From Acidobacteriaceae bacterium (GTDB lineage: Bacteria > Acidobacteriota > Terriglobia > Terriglobales > Acidobacteriaceae): a stretch of 32,100 nucleotides of DNA. Made by a program: the position numbers and the translations under genes. The stretch covers positions 1 to 32,100 of the forward strand of contig DAHUZH010000032.1 in the NCBI GenBank assembly GCA_027306695.1, in the 5' to 3' direction. This document shows positions 1 to 8,264 of this stretch, one piece after another (within the stretch, counting starts at the first letter, position 1; the number at the start of each line of letters is the position of its first letter). The notes beneath the pieces are model-generated. The model saw only the letters and a list, made by a program, of their open reading frames with translations. It ran no database searches and was not told where the DNA came from.

Positions 1-242
1 AGTTTCCTACATCCCTGCCGCTGCCCTGATAGATACAAGAATGACTCATTTTGTCATTGAGCTACGTTAACCATCAATCGGCTCTAGAATCCAGAATTGC
101 TGGCGCGGATGACAGGCCATGCGGGGCCAACCCAGCCTGGCCGCCGAAACTAATTTCCCGAGCGTCCAGCTTAACTGTCTACGCCCGATGCGGATATTCG
201 GCGGTACAATACAGCGCAGCCGGATATAGCAGGGGAGACCCT
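1..242. other. Upstream region without a supported gene
   Basis: The reading frame of the radical SAM gene stays open back to position 51, but the residues upstream of 243 show no family resemblance and the clear ribosome binding site lies just before 243. A small inverted repeat (AATGAC, 7-nt spacer, GTCATT) sits near 41-59. I see no convincing promoter or RNA gene here. Confidence 0.5.
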
Positions 243-1730
243 ATGAACATATTGCTATTGTCGATGCCGGATTCGTTTGAGCATATGCCTTCGATTGTGA
301 TCCGCATGCCGAACGGGGCGTTAAGCTCGCTGGCGGGCAACGTCGATGGGCACCACAGAGTGGCGGTCGCCGATCTCATCCTGTGCCAGCGACGCGTACG
401 GGAGACGGTAACGCGTCTGGTCCAGGAGCTTGATCCTCAGGTCGTTGGACTCTCGGTCATGACGTTCCAGCGCAGGACCGCCGAACGCATTATACATCTG
501 ATTCGCCGCCTGAAACCGGACGCCAAGATCGTAGTCGGCGGGTATGATCCCAGCCTGGCGTCTGAGGCATACCTCGCCATGCCAATCGACTTCATCGTGC
601 GCGGTGAGGGAGAGGTCACATTCCGTGAACTGACGCGTGCGCTGGAAGGGCACGGCGACATGCACTTTATTTCTGGCCTGTCGCATCGACATGAAGGGCG
701 ATGGATTCACAACCAGTTGCGCGCGCCGAGCCTGCTGGAGAGCGAGGAGATCCGTCTGCCAAATCGAAGCGCGCGGGTGTTGGAGGGGTACACGATGCTG
801 GGGCGGCAGGTCGATGTGATCGAGACATCGCGCGGCTGCACCTATGACTGTAGCTTCTGCTCCATCATTGAAATGCGCGGACGCAATTTTCACACTTACT
901 CCTTCGACCGTGTGATCGCCGACATTCGAGACGCCAAGGAGCACGGAGCGCGTACGCTTTTCCTGGTCGATGACAACATCACGCTGAACGTGCGCCGTTT
1001 TGAAGCGCTCTGCAATGCGATCATTGAGGCCGGTCTCCATACCCTCGACTACTTTCTTCAAGGCATGACTTCGGCAATCGCCAACCATGGAGAGCAGTTG
1101 GCCCCTCTGATGAAGCGTGCTGGATTTCGCTACGTGTTTCTGGGAATCGAGAACATTCTGGAGAGCGACCTGAAGCTGCTGCAGGCGAGTGCAAAGAACA
1201 CGGCCCGCGTGAATGGGCACAGTACCGGCAATGCAACGCTGCAAGCGATCGAGTATCTGCATCGCAACGGCATCTACGTCGTGGGAGGGCTTATCGTCGG
1301 CAGTCCGAACGATACGGTGGAGTCGATCGAGGCGAACCTCGCCTTTGCGCGCAAGTATGTGGACTGGCCGTATATTCAGCATCCGACGCCATATCCTCGC
1401 ACACCCATGACGGACGATTTTCGCCGCCGCGGACTCATCGAACACGAGCGATTTGAAGAGTACGATGGGACCACTTCAGTCGTGCACAATGAGAACATGT
1501 CCGCCGACGAGATCGAGTATCTACGCTGGAAGGCTGAGCGCGGGATGAAGACGCGCCACCTGCCCAGCGTGTTCCTGCATGATCCGTGGTTCGTTGCGCG
1601 CAACGCAATGAAAATGGCTGCGCACACCTATCGCGGCTCGACGCTGCGCACCGTGCTCGGGCTGGAAAACGATCGGCAAGCCTTCGCCCGGTACAAGCAG
1701 ATTCGCGGCAAAGAGCGCGAATACGTCTGA
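243..1730 (+). CDS. B12-binding domain radical SAM protein
   Basis: This is a predicted cytosolic radical SAM enzyme of 495 residues. The N-terminal part (about 1-160) has the look of a cobalamin-binding Rossmann domain, with the stretches VVGLSVMTF, KIVVGGYDPS and DFIVRGEGEVTF. The radical SAM core follows, with the [4Fe-4S] motif C199-TYD-C203-SF-C206. Later come LFLVDDNIT and a GLIVGSPNDT segment typical of the barrel. The start at 243 is chosen because AGGGGAG precedes it and the protein then begins with the family-like MNILLLSMP. Members of this B12-binding group include methyltransferases and lipid- or cofactor-modifying enzymes. The substrate cannot be read from the sequence and no biosynthetic partner lies next to it. 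The tRNA-Met gene follows 178 nt downstream. Confidence 0.88.
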   Translation: MNILLLSMPDSFEHMPSIVIRMPNGALSSLAGNVDGHHRVAVADLILCQRRVRETVTRLVQELDPQVVGLSVMTFQRRTAERIIHLIRRLKPDAKIVVGGYDPSLASEAYLAMPIDFIVRGEGEVTFRELTRALEGHGDMHFISGLSHRHEGRWIHNQLRAPSLLESEEIRLPNRSARVLEGYTMLGRQVDVIETSRGCTYDCSFCSIIEMRGRNFHTYSFDRVIADIRDAKEHGARTLFLVDDNITLNVRRFEALCNAIIEAGLHTLDYFLQGMTSAIANHGEQLAPLMKRAGFRYVFLGIENILESDLKLLQASAKNTARVNGHSTGNATLQAIEYLHRNGIYVVGGLIVGSPNDTVESIEANLAFARKYVDWPYIQHPTPYPRTPMTDDFRRRGLIEHERFEEYDGTTSVVHNENMSADEIEYLRWKAERGMKTRHLPSVFLHDPWFVARNAMKMAAHTYRGSTLRTVLGLENDRQAFARYKQIRGKEREYV

Positions 1731-2019: not shown

Positions 2020-3366
2020 TCAAGCACCGTAGATATTGGTGCGGAGAAATTGATTGTGGAATTTTCCGCCAGGATCGTAATGGTCGAGCAGCGCTCGATA
2101 CTCGGGCAGCTTGGCGTACATGGGTTGGATTGTTGACGGCGGCATGGTAAACAGCTTGGCCCAGTGCGGCCTGGCGTGGAAAGGAGCCAGCTTCGCTTCA
2201 ATCAAGGGAAGCACCTTTTTGACCGCAGGCCATTCCGGCTTCCAGGTAAAGTGCAGGGTCATGGAGGGCCGTTCGTAGCAGGGACTCATCCAAAGATCGT
2301 CCGCAGCAATGGTGCGCAGTTCGGTGATAAAAAGATGCGGAGTGATCTGGTCGCGTAGTTGTTCGACGGCCAGAATGGCTTCGTATCCTTTGTCGCAAGG
2401 AACGAAGTATTCCGTTTGCAGTTCGGCGCCGCTGCTGGGAACGAAGCCCATGCGGAAGTGGGGGAGCCTGTCATACCAGGGGCCGGGAATGCCCATCTGT
2501 TCGGTGCAGCTTTCCGCCGAGTGCCCTGGAAGCGGGTGAAGTTTCCGGGTTGCGAGTTTGGCGCCGAAAAATTCCGGTGCCAGGTCGGGCTTGGAGCCGG
2601 TTTCATAGCGGCGCTTGATCCATACCTGGGCGATGCGATGGTCTTGCCAGTTCGTAAACAGGCTAACACTGTAGCCGCTGGCAAAGATTTCTTCCAGATG
2701 GCCGCGCAGGTGGTCCATCGAAAGATTCTCATAAACGACCTGCGTCATTTGATACGCAGGTACGACCTTCAACGTGATGCTGGTGACGATGCCCAGGCCG
2801 CCCAGCCCGACAACGGTTCCGGGAAACTTGTCGCCATCGCGCTCTTTGGAAAGTGAGATCAACTCGCCATTTGCGGTAACGATTTCCATTCCAGTCACAG
2901 CAGTGGAAAGGTTGCCGTTCGCGTTGCCGGAGCCATGCGTCGCCGTCGCGCACGCGCCCACGACAGAAATCTGCGGCAAAGAAGCCAGGTTCTGCAATGC
3001 GTAGCCGTGCTGGTCGAGGTACGGGCCAAGCTGGCCGTAGATGACGCCCGCGCCGACAGTGATGGTCCTCGCCTTGGGGTCTAAAACCATCCGATCAAAT
3101 TGCTTCAAAGAGATTTGATTGGCGCTGCTGTCGGCGATCCCATTGAAAGAATGGCGCGTGCCGAGCGCCTTCAGCTTGCTGCAACTCTTTGCGATCTTTT
3201 GCACATCTCCGATGGTTTGGGGAACGTACAACCGTTCGGTATGGTAGGCGAAGTTTCCAGCCCAGTTGGTTCGAGGTTCGATTTGCAGGTCGCCGGATGC
3301 ATAGCGGGACAGCAGACCACTGGCAAGGAAAACACTGGAGGTTTTCAGGAAGTCTCTTTTATCCAT
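2020..3366 (-). CDS. FAD-linked alditol oxidase (AldO/xylitol oxidase-like), exported
   Basis: This 448-residue flavoenzyme resembles the VAO/PCMH-fold sugar-alcohol and aldonolactone oxidases. The match is best to alditol (xylitol) oxidases, which oxidise the terminal hydroxyl of polyols to an aldose and release H2O2. Visible marks are NWAGN near residue 34, GTRHSFNG with H72 at the expected covalent FAD attachment position, LASLPQISVVGACATATHGSG, and the C-terminal HYDPGGKFHNQFL typical of the family. The N-terminus DKRDFLKTSS followed by a hydrophobic run looks like a Tat signal in which the first Arg is Lys. Start at 3366 is chosen because the longer frame adds 35 unrelated residues; GGAAAGG lies about 14 nt upstream, which is rather far. 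It is divergent from the S41 homologue. Substrate preference is inference only. Confidence 0.85.
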   Translation of the reverse strand: MDKRDFLKTSSVFLASGLLSRYASGDLQIEPRTNWAGNFAYHTERLYVPQTIGDVQKIAKSCSKLKALGTRHSFNGIADSSANQISLKQFDRMVLDPKARTITVGAGVIYGQLGPYLDQHGYALQNLASLPQISVVGACATATHGSGNANGNLSTAVTGMEIVTANGELISLSKERDGDKFPGTVVGLGGLGIVTSITLKVVPAYQMTQVVYENLSMDHLRGHLEEIFASGYSVSLFTNWQDHRIAQVWIKRRYETGSKPDLAPEFFGAKLATRKLHPLPGHSAESCTEQMGIPGPWYDRLPHFRMGFVPSSGAELQTEYFVPCDKGYEAILAVEQLRDQITPHLFITELRTIAADDLWMSPCYERPSMTLHFTWKPEWPAVKKVLPLIEAKLAPFHARPHWAKLFTMPPSTIQPMYAKLPEYRALLDHYDPGGKFHNQFLRTNIYGA

Positions 3367-3487
3367 ATAGCTATGTTCTACCTTTCCATTCGCGCCTTTA
3401 GCATGTATTTCCCTGGATATCCATTGCGACGGGGAGAAAGTTGTACACTGGGGCCAGTGGTTGTTTGCCAAACCGCGCCTTTAATGT

Positions 3488-4756
3488 ATGCCTAAAGCAC
3501 TCAAGCTTTCTCTTCTCGCCATCTCCGTGCTGCTGGTCGTGTTTGTGTTTCTTGGCGGCATTCTGCCTGGCGGTGTCAGCGCCGGCACAGACGCCACCGC
3601 CTATCAGCAAATCGAAGTCTACAGTGAAGTGTTGCAGCACATCCAGAACGATTATGTCGTCACGCCGAATATCCAGGACGTCACGATCGGATCGCTGCAT
3701 GGATTGCTGGAAGGACTCGATCCCGATTCCGGTTATCTGACGCCTGCAGAGTTCAAGATCTATCAGTCGCATCAAAGTGAGATCAAGGCCCAGGTTGGCG
3801 TCGACATTTCCAAGCGCTATGGATATGCGACCGTGGTCTCTGTGATTCCCGGCAGTCCAGCCGACAGAGCGGGGATCGTCGATGGAGACGTGATCGAGTC
3901 GATTGGCAATCAGAGTACGCGGGTCATGCCGATCCAGATGATCGAGTTATTGCTGGATGGCCAGCCGGGCACGAAGGTCAGCTTCTCCGTGATCGAACCG
4001 ACCAGCGCCACGCCCAACGCGATGACGCTGACGCGCACGCTGCCACAATATCCGGTGCTGCATGTGGATGAATATGAAAACAGCAGCATTTTGTATCTAA
4101 AGCCCTACGACCTGCAGAAAGATCGCGTGGATGAGGTGCTGGCGCGGATCGCCCAGGTGCAAAAAACGGGCCAGCAAAAAATTCTGCTCGATCTGCGCGA
4201 CGTTGTCGATGGCGAGATGGATCCCGCAGTGCAACTGGCGAATGCATTTCTCAAATCGGGCACGATTGCGACGCTCGAAGGACAGAAGTATCCACAACAG
4301 ACGTGGACTGCCGCACCAAAGAACTTTGTTACCGCTGCTCCGCTGATGGTCCTGGTGAACCATGGCACAGCCGGGCCGGCAGAGATCGTAGCGGCTGCGC
4401 TCAAGGACAACAATCGCGCCCAGTTGGTGGGCGACCGCACGTTCGGTACTGGCTCCGTGCAAAAGCAGATCCCCTTGCCGGATGGCGCTGTACTGTTTCT
4501 GTCGGTCGCCAAGTATCGCGGGCCGGACGGCAAAGTGATCCAGCATGATGCGGTGATGCCGAACGTATTGGTGGCCGCGAACAATGGATTTGGGATGGGC
4601 GCGCCGTCGGCTGCCAAGTCCACGTCCGGCCCGGTGACGAAACCGACCGTCCCGGCTACAACTCCGGCGCAGCCGCCAGCGCAGCCATCGGTCGCACAAC
4701 CGGATGACCAGTTGGACAAGGCGTTGGCCCTTCTAAAGCAGGAGAAAGCCGCCTAG
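3488..4756 (+). CDS. S41 (C-terminal processing) peptidase homologue, catalytic residues missing
   Basis: This 422-residue protein has the Ctp/Prc family architecture. It carries an N-terminal membrane anchor or signal (about 5-31), a short helical segment with LHGLLEGLDPDSGYLTP, a PDZ domain (about 100-180, VVSVIPGSPADRAGIVDGDVI), and the S41 core from about 200 to 360. It ends in a Pro/Ala-rich tail (about 375-405). In active members the core reads SASASEI...D...FGKG. Here the same segment reads TAGPAEI...D...FGTG, so the Ser position is Gly296 and the Lys position is Thr321, while Asp307 remains. It is therefore probably not a working protease by the standard Ser/Lys dyad and may act as a scaffold or regulator in the periplasm. 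The PBP1A-like gene follows 159 nt downstream on the same strand. No strong ribosome binding site precedes the ATG. Confidence 0.88.
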   Translation: MPKALKLSLLAISVLLVVFVFLGGILPGGVSAGTDATAYQQIEVYSEVLQHIQNDYVVTPNIQDVTIGSLHGLLEGLDPDSGYLTPAEFKIYQSHQSEIKAQVGVDISKRYGYATVVSVIPGSPADRAGIVDGDVIESIGNQSTRVMPIQMIELLLDGQPGTKVSFSVIEPTSATPNAMTLTRTLPQYPVLHVDEYENSSILYLKPYDLQKDRVDEVLARIAQVQKTGQQKILLDLRDVVDGEMDPAVQLANAFLKSGTIATLEGQKYPQQTWTAAPKNFVTAAPLMVLVNHGTAGPAEIVAAALKDNNRAQLVGDRTFGTGSVQKQIPLPDGAVLFLSVAKYRGPDGKVIQHDAVMPNVLVAANNGFGMGAPSAAKSTSGPVTKPTVPATTPAQPPAQPSVAQPDDQLDKALALLKQEKAA

Positions 4757-4807
4757 TTGATAGCGGGTGTATTGCCGCGTGTTCCAATCTGCTCTCATCC
4801 GAACAAG

Positions 4808-4825
4808 CTGCAAATAGATTTGCAG
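4808..4825. promoter_or_regulatory. 18-bp perfect palindrome upstream of the PBP gene
   Basis: CTGCAAAT and ATTTGCAG form a perfect 8-bp inverted repeat with a 2-bp centre. It lies in the 159-nt gap between the S41 homologue and the penicillin-binding protein, about 90 nt before the latter. The size and symmetry fit a dimeric repressor operator. No run of T follows, so it does not look like a terminator. The bound regulator is unknown. Confidence 0.4.
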
Positions 4826-4915
4826 GAAGTTTCCTCGTGCGCAGTCGCACGCGCTGCCGTTAGGATAGGGGCATACTGCTGTATTTTTTAGCGGCGTCAT
4901 GCATCGGGACTGTCC

Positions 4916-7207
4916 TTGACCTTTACACCTCCAGCACAGCCACACTCTTCCTACACGCGCCGCGTGAACTTCCGACCGCCTTCCAGCCGGCGTAAGAAAC
5001 TGGCAGGCTCGACTGCGTTCGCGGTCCTGGCGATTCTGGCGGCAATGTTCGGCTCGCTCTGCGGGCTGCTGCTGATCTATACCGTCGACTTGCCGCAGAT
5101 TCAGGAACTGGAACGCTACCGGCCCAATACAACGACGGTGTTGTATGACATTCACGGCGTGCAGATAGGTTCGTTTGCGCTGGAGCGTCGCATTGTGGTC
5201 GGGTATGACGACATCCCTCCCGTACTGCGGCACGCTGTGATTTCCATTGAGGACAAGAATTTTGAAAGCCACTGGGGCGTCAATCTTTTTCGCGTCATTG
5301 GGGCCGCGTATCGCGACCTGACTGCGGACCGGCGTGCGCAGGGTGCTTCGACACTCACCATGCAATTGGCAAAAAATCTTTTTTTGTCGCCGGAGAGATC
5401 CTTCCGCCGCAAATTGCAGGAAGTGCTGCTTTCCATCCAGATTGAGCGGAACTTTACCAAGGAGCAGATTTTCACTTTATACGTGAACCAGATTTATCTG
5501 GGCCAGGGTGTTTATGGGTTTGAGGCTGGATCGGAGTACTACTTCAGCAAGCATGCGCGCGATTTGACTCTACCGGAAGCGGCGTTATTGGCTGCTTTGC
5601 CGCGTGGGCCATCGTATTACTCCCCGGTTACGCATTCGGAGCGGGCCTTGGAGCGCCGCAATCGCGTGTTGAACGCCATGCTGGAAGATGGCGTGATTAC
5701 GGCGCAACAGGCGTCGGAGGCCAAAGCGGCTCCGCTGGGGCTGCACATTGAGCCGCCTCCGAATACAGCAGCTCCGTGGTTTGTCGAGGAGGTGCGCAAA
5801 GAACTGGACCAACGGTTCGGCTCGGACATGGTGCACCAGTCCGGCCTGCGCGTCGACACAACACTGGATTTGAAGTTGCAGCAAGCCGCCAACCAGGCCG
5901 TGCTGGATGGACTGGCCACCTACGAGCGACGCCGAGGCTGGCAGGGGCATCTGCTGAATGTGATTGTGGCGGGTAGTTCGGTGGATGCATTTCATCATCC
6001 AGATTGGGTCCTTCCTCCGACACCAGGGGCCTATATTCACGGCGTAGTGACAGAGGTGTTGCCGTATGAAGTGACGGTGCGCGTTGGCGACCATCAGAGC
6101 GCGATTCTTGCACCGGAGGACTGGACATGGACGAACGATAAGCTGGCCAGCGATTTTTTGAAGACGGGCGATATCGTGTATGTGCACATTTTACCGGCCC
6201 AGAGCGGCGATAGCGGCAGCGTGTTGCACGCTTCGCTGGAGCAGGATTCCGGCGCGCAGGCCTCATTGATGGCGGTCGACAATGCCAGCGGCGACGTGCT
6301 CGCCATGGTGGGCGGGCGCGACTTCAACCTTTCGCAGTATGACCGTGCCATGCAGGCGCAGCGGCAGACTGGGTCATCGTTCAAAGCGTATGTCTATACC
6401 ACCGCTATGGAGGCCGGCGACAAGCCGGACAGCATGGTCCTGGATGCGCCAGTCACATTTCACACGGCCTCTGGAGCGTACTCGCCGCACGATTACGACA
6501 ATCGTTATCAGGGCAACATCACGCTGCTGCATGCCTTTGCGGACTCGCGAAACATTCCCGCTCTAAAACTGGCGCAACGGCTTGGGATCAGCAATGTGAT
6601 TGCGACCGCGCATCGTTTCGGCGTCACCTCAGACATTCCGCCTTTCCTGCCCATTGCCCTGGGCGCGGCGGGCATCAGCCTGTATGAACAAGTGGCCGCC
6701 TACAGCAGCTTTCCGAATGATGGCATCCGCCTCACACCACATTTTGTACATAAGGTGACGACCGCAGATGAAGAGGTGCTGTGGGAGGACACGCCGGACG
6801 TCCACGTTGCTACCGACGCGAAGACGGCGCGGGAGATGATGCAGTTGTTTGAGGCGGTCATCCATCAGGGTACTGGCGTGGCAGCCGGGCAATTGCATCA
6901 TCCGCTGGGCGGGAAGACGGGCACAACCAACGATTTTACGGATGCATGGTTCCTTGGGTTTTCGCCCTCTGTGACGTGCGGGGTCTGGGTTGGTTACGAC
7001 GATCGCCAGAGTCTTGGCCCCAAAGAAACGGGCGCGCGAGCGGCGCTGCCAATCTGGATGGGCTTCATGCGCGCTGCGATTGCGGACCATCCCGACGAAA
7101 ATTTTCCGGGTGAAAGACCGGTTGCGGCCCCGGTCGGTTCGTTCGCGACATCCTCCACGAAGGGCACAACATCCCGTCTTGGCGCCGTGCTGCAGGCGGC
7201 ACATTAG
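4916..7207 (+). CDS. Class A penicillin-binding protein (PBP1A-like, bifunctional)
   Basis: This 763-residue peptidoglycan synthase has a basic cytoplasmic tail and one transmembrane helix (about 33-55). The GT51 glycosyltransferase domain follows, with catalytic E112 in IEDKNFESHWG and GASTLTMQLAKN. The transpeptidase domain has S487-S-F-K490 (SxxK), S544-R-N546 (SxN) and K667-T-G669 (KTG), so both activities appear intact. A linker of about 120 residues between the domains (about 345-450) fits the OB-like insert of PBP1A proteins. It acts at the periplasmic face, polymerising lipid II and cross-linking stem peptides. The start is TTG at 4916, with GGGA about 7 nt upstream; a GTG at 4964 is possible but has no ribosome binding site. 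The preceding S41 homologue could be functionally linked. Confidence 0.93.
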   Translation: MTFTPPAQPHSSYTRRVNFRPPSSRRKKLAGSTAFAVLAILAAMFGSLCGLLLIYTVDLPQIQELERYRPNTTTVLYDIHGVQIGSFALERRIVVGYDDIPPVLRHAVISIEDKNFESHWGVNLFRVIGAAYRDLTADRRAQGASTLTMQLAKNLFLSPERSFRRKLQEVLLSIQIERNFTKEQIFTLYVNQIYLGQGVYGFEAGSEYYFSKHARDLTLPEAALLAALPRGPSYYSPVTHSERALERRNRVLNAMLEDGVITAQQASEAKAAPLGLHIEPPPNTAAPWFVEEVRKELDQRFGSDMVHQSGLRVDTTLDLKLQQAANQAVLDGLATYERRRGWQGHLLNVIVAGSSVDAFHHPDWVLPPTPGAYIHGVVTEVLPYEVTVRVGDHQSAILAPEDWTWTNDKLASDFLKTGDIVYVHILPAQSGDSGSVLHASLEQDSGAQASLMAVDNASGDVLAMVGGRDFNLSQYDRAMQAQRQTGSSFKAYVYTTAMEAGDKPDSMVLDAPVTFHTASGAYSPHDYDNRYQGNITLLHAFADSRNIPALKLAQRLGISNVIATAHRFGVTSDIPPFLPIALGAAGISLYEQVAAYSSFPNDGIRLTPHFVHKVTTADEEVLWEDTPDVHVATDAKTAREMMQLFEAVIHQGTGVAAGQLHHPLGGKTGTTNDFTDAWFLGFSPSVTCGVWVGYDDRQSLGPKETGARAALPIWMGFMRAAIADHPDENFPGERPVAAPVGSFATSSTKGTTSRLGAVLQAAH

Positions 7208-7286
7208 AACGAATTGATGGTTAGTGTGGCCGAATGGCTCGCTTGCCATCTGTGTGCCACAAGCTGTCAATCCGCTCAATCGAACA

Positions 7287-8264
7287 TTAACTATCCAGCG
7301 AACGCGGCGTCATTCCCGAAACAGCATCGAACAAAGCGAAATAATGCCGGGCGCGGGAAATATCGCGGTCAATTTGCTCCTTCAACGCCTGGGGCGATGG
7401 CCACTGAATCTCAGGCCGGATGCGGTCGAGAAAGCGCAGCCGGAGTGGCGTGCGTTCCTTTAGTTCGATGGGATTAAAGTTGAGAATATGGCTTTCGACG
7501 GCTAAGGAATCTTTACCGAATGTAGGTCGATTGCCGATGTTGGTGACGGACTGGAAGGGTTCGCCGTTCACCGCCAGGCAGGTGATGTAGACACCATTGG
7601 CCGGAAGCAACTCGGTGTAATTCGCGAGGTTGATGGTCGGCACTGTGTAGCGCGAGCCGTAACCACGGCCGGGCGCTGGCGTTGAAATAATTTCAAAAGG
7701 CCGGCCAAGAAGCTGCCGCGCAGCACGCATGTTTCCGTCCGCGATGACGGCGCGGACAACGCTGCTCGAAACTACAATACGCCGCCACAAGGTAGGCCGG
7801 TGCACGCGGGCCTGGAATCCCAATTCCTTTCCAAGAATTGCCAACTCGCTGACATCGGCGGTGGCGTCCGCGCCGAAGCGAAAATTTTCTCCCTCCTGGA
7901 CTTCGATGGCCCCCAGCACGTCCCGCAGGATGCCGCGCGCAAACTCCGGTGCGGTCAGCCGGGAGAGTCGATGGGTGAAGGGAAGGACAAGCACGGCATC
8001 GAGGCTGGTCTGCGCCAGCAAAGTAAGTTTTTCTTCCAGTGGAGTGATCAGGCGAAGCGGAGTTTGCGGACGCAGCACGCGCGCGGGATGAGGCTCGAAG
8101 GTCACGGCCACGGAGCGCGCATGGAGCGCCCGCGCCCGCTCGATCACTTCCGAGAGAACGGCCTGGTGTCCGCGATGCACGCCATCGAAGTTGCCGATGG
8201 TGACGACGGAAGGGCCGTAATGCGCGGGAATTTCCTGGAGCGAGCGGAAGATTTGCATGGTCAT
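7287..8264 (-). CDS. ribF: Bifunctional riboflavin kinase / FAD synthetase RibF
   Basis: This 325-residue enzyme phosphorylates riboflavin to FMN and adenylates FMN to FAD. The N-terminal nucleotidyltransferase domain begins with VVTIGNFDGVHRGHQAVL, holding the HxGH-type motif, and continues with ARSVAVTFEPHPARVL. The C-terminal kinase domain holds GRGYGSRYTVPTINL, ITCLAVNG, VTNIGNRPTFG and VESHIL. Its length matches the family. The ATG overlaps the stop codon of the upstream metallohydrolase gene as ATGA, so it is probably translationally coupled as the last gene of the minus-strand operon that starts with the ygfZ-like gene. It converges with the PBP gene across about 80 nt. Confidence 0.95.
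   Translation of the reverse strand: MTMQIFRSLQEIPAHYGPSVVTIGNFDGVHRGHQAVLSEVIERARALHARSVAVTFEPHPARVLRPQTPLRLITPLEEKLTLLAQTSLDAVLVLPFTHRLSRLTAPEFARGILRDVLGAIEVQEGENFRFGADATADVSELAILGKELGFQARVHRPTLWRRIVVSSSVVRAVIADGNMRAARQLLGRPFEIISTPAPGRGYGSRYTVPTINLANYTELLPANGVYITCLAVNGEPFQSVTNIGNRPTFGKDSLAVESHILNFNPIELKERTPLRLRFLDRIRPEIQWPSPQALKEQIDRDISRARHYFALFDAVSGMTPRSLDS

Follow-up and report, generated by a model that had tools for sequence, protein, structure and literature searches.

The gene at positions 3488-4756 of the window (the whole analysed stretch of DNA, 32,100 nucleotides from an Acidobacteriaceae bacterium) encodes an S41A Ctp homologue in which both residues of the catalytic Ser-Lys dyad have been replaced. 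An earlier note on this DNA had read it as a non-proteolytic adaptor for peptidoglycan synthesis. The first part of that reading is well supported, as conservation, phylogeny and dN/dS point to a pseudoprotease that selection has kept for some role other than proteolysis, and gene order supports a link to peptidoglycan. The proposed role as an adaptor for the neighbouring class A PBP fares poorly and may at most be one lineage's use of the protein. On balance, we lean slightly towards an ancient Acidobacteriota S41A pseudoprotease that takes part in peptidoglycan remodelling as a scaffold and does not cut.

Gene, domains and neighbours

The reading frame is intact, as had been claimed, and runs from ATG to stop over 422 amino acids on the forward strand. 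The gene, the parts of its protein and the gene that follows are located as below.

3488..4756, forward strand: S41A/PDZ pseudoprotease gene, 422 aa (open reading frame, Pfam, alignment)
3494..3562, forward strand: N-terminal hydrophobic helix, residues 3-25, a probable membrane anchor or signal (modelled secondary structure, sequence)
3794..3994, forward strand: PDZ domain, residues 103-169 (Pfam PDZ_6)
4088..4570, forward strand: Peptidase_S41 domain, residues 201-361 (Pfam)
4706..4744, forward strand: C-terminal helix, residues 407-419, DDQLxKALxxLK in close relatives (model and alignment)
4916..7207, forward strand: class A PBP of the PBP1A family, directly downstream (Pfam/NCBIfam; SxxK and KTGT intact by eye)

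Peptidase_S41 matches residues 201-361 with an E-value of 2e-32 and 112.5 bits, above its cut-off of 24, and PDZ_6 matches ahead of it at 1.1e-10 and 41.6 bits (cut-off 27). The C-terminal processing peptidase model TIGR00225 of NCBIfam gives 186.5 bits, below its curated cut-off of 218.6. The position directly upstream of a class A PBP, also given by the earlier note, was verified by the PBP1A-family gene listed above. On the other side lies a divergent gene for an FAD-linked oxidase with an ALO domain (window 2020-3471, reverse strand); an ALO-type oxidase gene was matched in just two of the 80 close loci described below (L034 and L036). Further away, window 51-1730 encodes a B12-binding radical SAM protein whose best NCBIfam match, BchE, falls far under the cut-off. 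A scan of positions 3300-5100 found one promoter-like site (0.9 expected) and four terminator-like sites (1.4 expected), and none of either kind on the forward strand between the pseudoprotease and PBP1A genes, a result that is uninformative on co-transcription.

The source genome, G000, consists of 381 contigs and is 91% complete. It carries two further S41 matches, a canonical Ctp with the core GTASAAEI..FGKG (L001, on the 3.6-kb contig G000:C127) and L003, which is a more remote S41-domain protein.

Loss of the catalytic dyad and of other functional residues

Residue positions were assigned by alignment with CtpA of H. pylori, CtpA of P. aeruginosa and L001. The core GTASAAEI..FGKG reads GTAGPAEI..FGTG in the window protein, and the alignment with these three Ctp sequences confirmed the Gly at the Ser position and the Thr at the Lys position that had been reported for it. 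The Ser-Lys dyad by which an active S41A enzyme is recognised is absent. The altered and retained sites are the following.

4373..4375, forward strand: Gly296, at the catalytic Ser position (alignments)
4448..4450, forward strand: Thr321, at the catalytic Lys position (alignments)
3725..3727, forward strand: Asp80, in place of a conserved His (P. aeruginosa CtpA His84) that is found in 99% of active copies
3791..3793, forward strand: Gln102, replacing the first Gly of the PDZ carboxylate-binding loop (alignment)
4187..4213, forward strand: LDLRDVVDG for LDLRxNPGG, with NPG lost and DxR kept (alignment)
4460..4462, forward strand: Gln325, the kept accessory Gln (CtpB Gln338; alignment)

For P. 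aeruginosa CtpA, the available portion of PMC11021448 reports that S302A and K327A abolish activity, that Q331A has a minor effect and that His84 is the proposed acid. Of the accessory residues, the window protein has Asp80 at the equivalent of His84 and keeps Gln325 at that of Gln331. B. subtilis CtpB has Ser309-Lys334-Gln338 and the loop Gly113-Ile-Gly-Ala, as far as the accessible description goes, and of these the window protein keeps only the Gln and one Gly.

Losses beyond the dyad became apparent when 74 active copies were compared with 104 copies of the dyad-less lineage (dead copies; L172, introduced below, was placed with them). The Asn and the first Gly of LDLRxNPGG, found in 99% and 100% of active copies, respectively, are mostly lost in dead ones. 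The Gly that opens the PDZ carboxylate loop is there in 100% of the active copies but in just 17% of the dead ones, so that the usual binding of C-terminal peptides may be lost in most of the latter. Across dead copies His80, Gly102, Asn239 and Gly241 are mostly gone, while Asp235, Arg237, Gly315, Gly320 and Glu299 stand at 99-100% and Gln325 is retained in 70%. Structural residues kept and several functional sites lost make up the pattern of a pseudoenzyme, and the window protein is presumably inactive as a protease. Asp307, which the earlier note listed among the parts kept, is no mark of retained function. It is Glu in some congeners and is Asp in 97% of active versus 44% of dead copies; the source passages on the catalytic residues of CtpB and CtpA do not list its equivalent.

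The protein would still be a protease if another residue, for instance Thr294, acted as nucleophile. Position 294 is Thr in 92% and Ser in 8% of readable dead copies, and the frequent retention of Gln325 would fit as well. Nevertheless, an alternative catalytic pair was sought and rejected, as the residue comparison found no Lys, His, Asp or Glu that is conserved specifically in dead copies at the 70% level. Since active enzymes also have Ser or Thr at 294, its conservation is probably structural, and an enzyme using such a nucleophile is very improbable.

Predicted fold and structural relatives

AlphaFold2 on 64 orthologues gave a model with a mean pLDDT of 83.2 and a pTM of 0.76, in which residues 26-35, 38-42, 56-60 and 369-390 fall below a pLDDT of 50. 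According to VIA-align, the closest solved structure is 9ku0_D, from H. pylori CtpA (Z 36.5 and 31% identity, with 327 residues matched at 3.2 A), followed by P. aeruginosa CtpA chains of 8sxe, 8sxf, 8sxg and 8sxh (Z 35) and B. subtilis CtpB (Z 33.5). The model thus indicates that the S41/PDZ fold is kept, and the earlier claim that the rest of the fold, including the PDZ domain, survives is upheld by Pfam and by AlphaFold2/VIA. VIA rows ranked under the S41 entries cover the PDZ domain only and are uninformative on other whole-length folds.

The S41-fold domains of IRBP/RBP3 are not known to be proteolytic. IRBP/RBP3 modules share an S41-like fold with the window protein and match its model at VIA Z 15.6-19.0, but they are eukaryotic, retinoid-binding according to their entry titles, and far more distant. 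By analogy, the window protein could bind a small molecule, a lipid or another ligand unrelated to the cell wall, with its cell-wall neighbours being incidental. The degraded PDZ loop would agree with such a role. However, varied cell-wall neighbours recur in different lineages, and we consider a ligand binder of this kind improbable.

Closer at hand are the bacterial Ctps. H. pylori CtpA is an active enzyme, and the entry for its disabled mutant (9ku3) bears the title S300A/K325A/Q329A. B. subtilis CtpB, a PDZ-gated S41A dimer, resembles the window protein in its S41A/PDZ make-up. P. aeruginosa CtpA, an EnvC-linked S41A enzyme activated by LbcA, shares with the window protein the fold, the domain order and the short architecture, and the C-terminal helix of the latter resembles the C-terminal stretch of the former. 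They differ in that P. aeruginosa CtpA is active and follows envC, whereas the window protein has Gly/Thr at the dyad and precedes PBP1A.

Conservation and selection among close orthologues

A scan of genome contigs yielded 350 confirmed relatives, of which the best 80, named here as loci, form the close set. Their titles are of Acidobacteria type except for L059 ('bacterium'), L084 (titled Rhodanobacteraceae) and L108 (Verrucomicrobia). The last two show 53% and 51% identity to the query, respectively, and have PBP1A downstream, as the window does; their contigs are probably mislabelled or come from contaminated MAGs.

Gly296 is present in 79 of the 80 close loci, and Lys occurs at position 321 in none of the 79 that are readable there, which excludes chance or sequencing error as the source of Gly296/Thr321. 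With the window included (81 rows), the 296/321 pairs are Gly/Glu in 63 rows, Gly/Ser in seven, Gly/Ala in three and Gly/Asp in three. Single rows have Gly/Thr (the window itself), Gly/Met, Gly/Gln, Ser/Glu, and Gly with position 321 lost to a contig end. Conservation of the Gly/Thr pair, which had been put forward as a check, therefore holds for the Gly; the Thr is seen in one of the 81 rows. The exceptional Ser belongs to L057 (8001-9194), an otherwise typical close orthologue whose Lys position holds Glu.

Selection on the window gene is purifying. Fourteen whole-gene comparisons among it and its nearest relatives gave dN/dS values of 0.04-0.17, to be taken with caution in the 11 where dS exceeds 1; the three with dS below 0.6 give 0.09-0.17. 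Together with the conservation of the site, these values rule out a lone decaying copy in one MAG.

In the second family of the order, a Gly/Glu copy was found in 13 of 14 genomes. An order-wide search, in which canonical copies were counted too, gave a match in 294 of 298 genomes, the exceptions being G203, G222, G236 and G288. When a profile was used, G288 yielded an active copy, and G203, G222 and G236 gave neither a dead nor an active match.

Distribution and phylogeny in the Acidobacteriota

Two samples were drawn from the phylum. The first comprised 40 stretches from the best hits, 37 of them outside the window's own family; the full dyad is absent in 39 of the 40, a figure biased because the stretches were picked by their score against a dead-copy profile. 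The second, 61 further genomes with one per remaining family code, allows a fairer count, and as it covers top matches only (E up to 1e-18) dead copies may have been missed. A copy without the full dyad was found in 50 of these 61 genomes, 49 of which also have an active Ctp, and the other 11 yielded active copies only.

The 180 loci classified (L114-L293, in which L114 and L164 are one gene counted twice) divide into 75 with Ser and Lys, 101 without Lys, two with Lys and without Ser (L205 and L285) and two with an unreadable motif (L135 and L293). The Ser position of the 101 Lys-less loci is Gly in 87, Ser in four and another residue in 10, and their Lys position is mixed. Outside the phylum, a search of a plasmid collection matched 113 records, all below 60% identity. 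Seven of these were examined, and they and two PDB chains have the dyad in 9 of 9 sequences.

In a maximum-likelihood tree of 88 rows (a chosen subset, quick search, SH-aLRT values with no bootstrap, dyad and NPGG columns removed), a branch with an SH-aLRT of 100 separates 35 active rows from 53 rows of the dead lineage, and the window protein groups with the dead copies, apart from the active Ctps. Nine of the active rows are from outside the phylum and represent Pseudomonadota, Campylobacterota, Cyanobacteriota, Bacteroidota, Bacillota and Fusobacteriota, the two PDB-chain rows being presumed to belong to the phyla that their species names imply. Two unusual loci are among the 53. L172 (G635:C130:34000-48000, open frame 6454-7830, forward strand) has both Ser and Lys (TASGAEI..YGKSIVQ) and is nested in the dead lineage, where its sister is L205 (G357:C28), with Gly and Lys; the dyad has there been either kept or regained. 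A FastTree phylogeny of 175 rows, from which short, truncated, masked or duplicate sequences were omitted (L293, L135, L129, L127, L123, L114, L166, L141 and L143), agrees, with L172 as the sole Ser/Lys row off the active side. The simplest reading of these trees would be a single loss of the dyad, which depends on the root lying on the active side; fast evolution could also have grouped the dead copies falsely.

The regular presence of an active Ctp in genomes that have a dead one raises another explanation, that the window protein is an obligate non-catalytic subunit which gates the genome's active Ctp in a mixed oligomer. Known hexamers make this the strongest rival. In CtpA of both P. aeruginosa and H. 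pylori, only one subunit of each dimer in the hexamer is active, and the resting subunit of the P. aeruginosa enzyme extends a loop to the active site, according to the available parts of PMC11021448 and PMC12749690. An end helix with D-x-Q like that of the window protein was seen in three of six active copies viewed (L203, L219 and L238). Yet active Ctps are near-universal in the sample, so that their co-occurrence with dead copies says little, and the 11 genomes with active copies only count against it. Active Acidobacteriota copies are also longer (median open frame 559 versus 424 aa for dead ones). The strict C-terminal motif was found in 27 of the 103 dead copies and in 9 of the 75 active ones, which makes shared oligomer surfaces uncertain. 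A mixed oligomer is accordingly rated as unlikely, although it deserves attention ahead of the other rivals.

Genomic context

In 73 of the 80 close loci a PBP1A gene follows on the same strand, and its match begins no more than 0.9 kb away. Four of the remaining seven end within 457 nt; L067, L072 and L075 have room for the gene. This linkage speaks for a protein that serves PBP1A specifically, as its adaptor or activator. Nevertheless, conservation of the PBP neighbour, which the earlier note had singled out, stops at the family: among phylum-wide loci PBP1A follows in the window's own family only. A PBP-like gene lies downstream of five of the 105 loci without the full dyad, two of the five being the same gene. 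Another of the five, L145, comes from a different family of the same class; what follows there, at a distance of about 185 nt, is a 285-aa frame whose sole domain is Transgly (PF00912; 5628-6482, reverse strand), a further peptidoglycan neighbour that was seen once. Even a genome with both genes may have them apart, since G192 carries its pseudoprotease and its PBP1A on different contigs. G001, G007, G013 and G548, from two related families, have the pseudoprotease, yet their PBP1-type matches are distant (best E 4e-54 to 2e-57). PBP1A is thus no required partner across the lineage, and a role centred on it is improbable.

Apparent gene fusions were dismissed on inspection. The single pseudoprotease-PBP1A fusion, a 1134-aa frame in L088, is an artefact of an 'nn' scaffold gap near 8064, and the usual C-terminus (ILKQKNA, stop) lies in another frame. 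A 1233-aa open frame in G215 proved on re-reading to be a 411-aa frame followed by PBP1A.

Neighbours were surveyed across the phylum for the 105 loci without the full dyad (L135 and L293 included) and the 75 Ser/Lys loci. An EnvC-like M23 gene lies upstream on the same strand in 42 of the 105, mostly abutting (1.3 kb away in L161), and in 2 of the 75, one of which is L172. Thus, among the sampled loci, it is usually a dead Ctp that occupies this operon, and the active one is encoded separately by a longer gene. 'EnvC-like' was assigned from an M23 domain, a profile and position; as five loci of the set went into the profile, the matches of L172 and of four among the 42 were built in. In 63 of the 105 no EnvC-like gene was seen upstream, an absence that is weak because flanks extend from less than a hundred bases to about 7 kb and many do not exceed about 1.5 kb. 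In 25 of the 105 the next gene downstream encodes a divergent polysaccharide deacetylase of YibQ type. Other lineages have RuvX or MltG as neighbours, found upstream on the other strand in 24 and 20 of the 105, respectively. Pfam confirmed M23, Polysacc_deac_2, YceG (MltG) and RuvX in representative loci.

The order envC-ctpA-yibQ/sddA is known from proteobacteria, in which the Ctp is active. The available text of PMC12569750 gives the P. aeruginosa operon as envC-ctpA-PA5135, with PA5135 the yibQ/sddA orthologue, and this is the order of many dead-lineage loci. Sinorhizobium meliloti also has envC-ctpA-yibQ/sddA, with the Ctp dyad intact. The window locus does not have this arrangement, as its upstream neighbour is the ALO oxidase gene, on the opposite strand, and its downstream neighbour is PBP1A. 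Tentatively, and at slightly less than even probability, a Ctp of the division operon may have lost its dyad early in the Acidobacteriota, become fixed as a non-proteolytic part of the cell wall machinery that most sampled families keep, and been re-paired with EnvC, MltG or PBP1A by lineage.

A candidate non-cutting scaffold of the cell wall

CtpA and Prc destroy hydrolases and in this way control the growth of the cell wall. The scaffold or protector role favoured here would take the place of this degrader role of proteobacterial CtpA. The window protein, probably periplasmic, would be a membrane-anchored dimer or higher oligomer that binds cell-wall proteins. Its PDZ and S41 surfaces would hold partners without cutting them, such as EnvC-type activators, hydrolases and synthases of the peptidoglycan remodelling and division machinery. 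As a counterpoint, adjacent genes do not equal interaction.

Pseudoproteases are already known, and non-proteolytic proteins of S41 fold are known in eukaryotes, with IRBP as the example. A protein that works in a like manner is SipA of S. pyogenes, which, as described in the accessible part of the source, has a Ser-Lys protease fold minus Ser and Lys, retains the cleft for peptides and is required for assembly; it differs in belonging to an unrelated signal-peptidase-like family and in serving pilus assembly. In C. difficile, the pseudoproteases CspC and CspA form a signalling heterodimer, according to the part of the source available. Among the titles and abstracts listed by searches of the open-licence literature, none dealt with a bacterial S41 pseudoprotease lineage or with the Acidobacteriota gene; PMC6411480 tabulates PDZ proteins per phylum, and nothing on inactivity was found in its accessible part.

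If most families of this large phylum keep a non-cutting Ctp, often at the same place in the operon, then holding, gating or protecting would matter enough to have been retained over deep time. The automatic label 'S41 family peptidase' may often name a non-peptidase in the Acidobacteriota. Lastly, a genome with both an inactive and an active copy would offer a direct way into the resting half of a Ctp oligomer.
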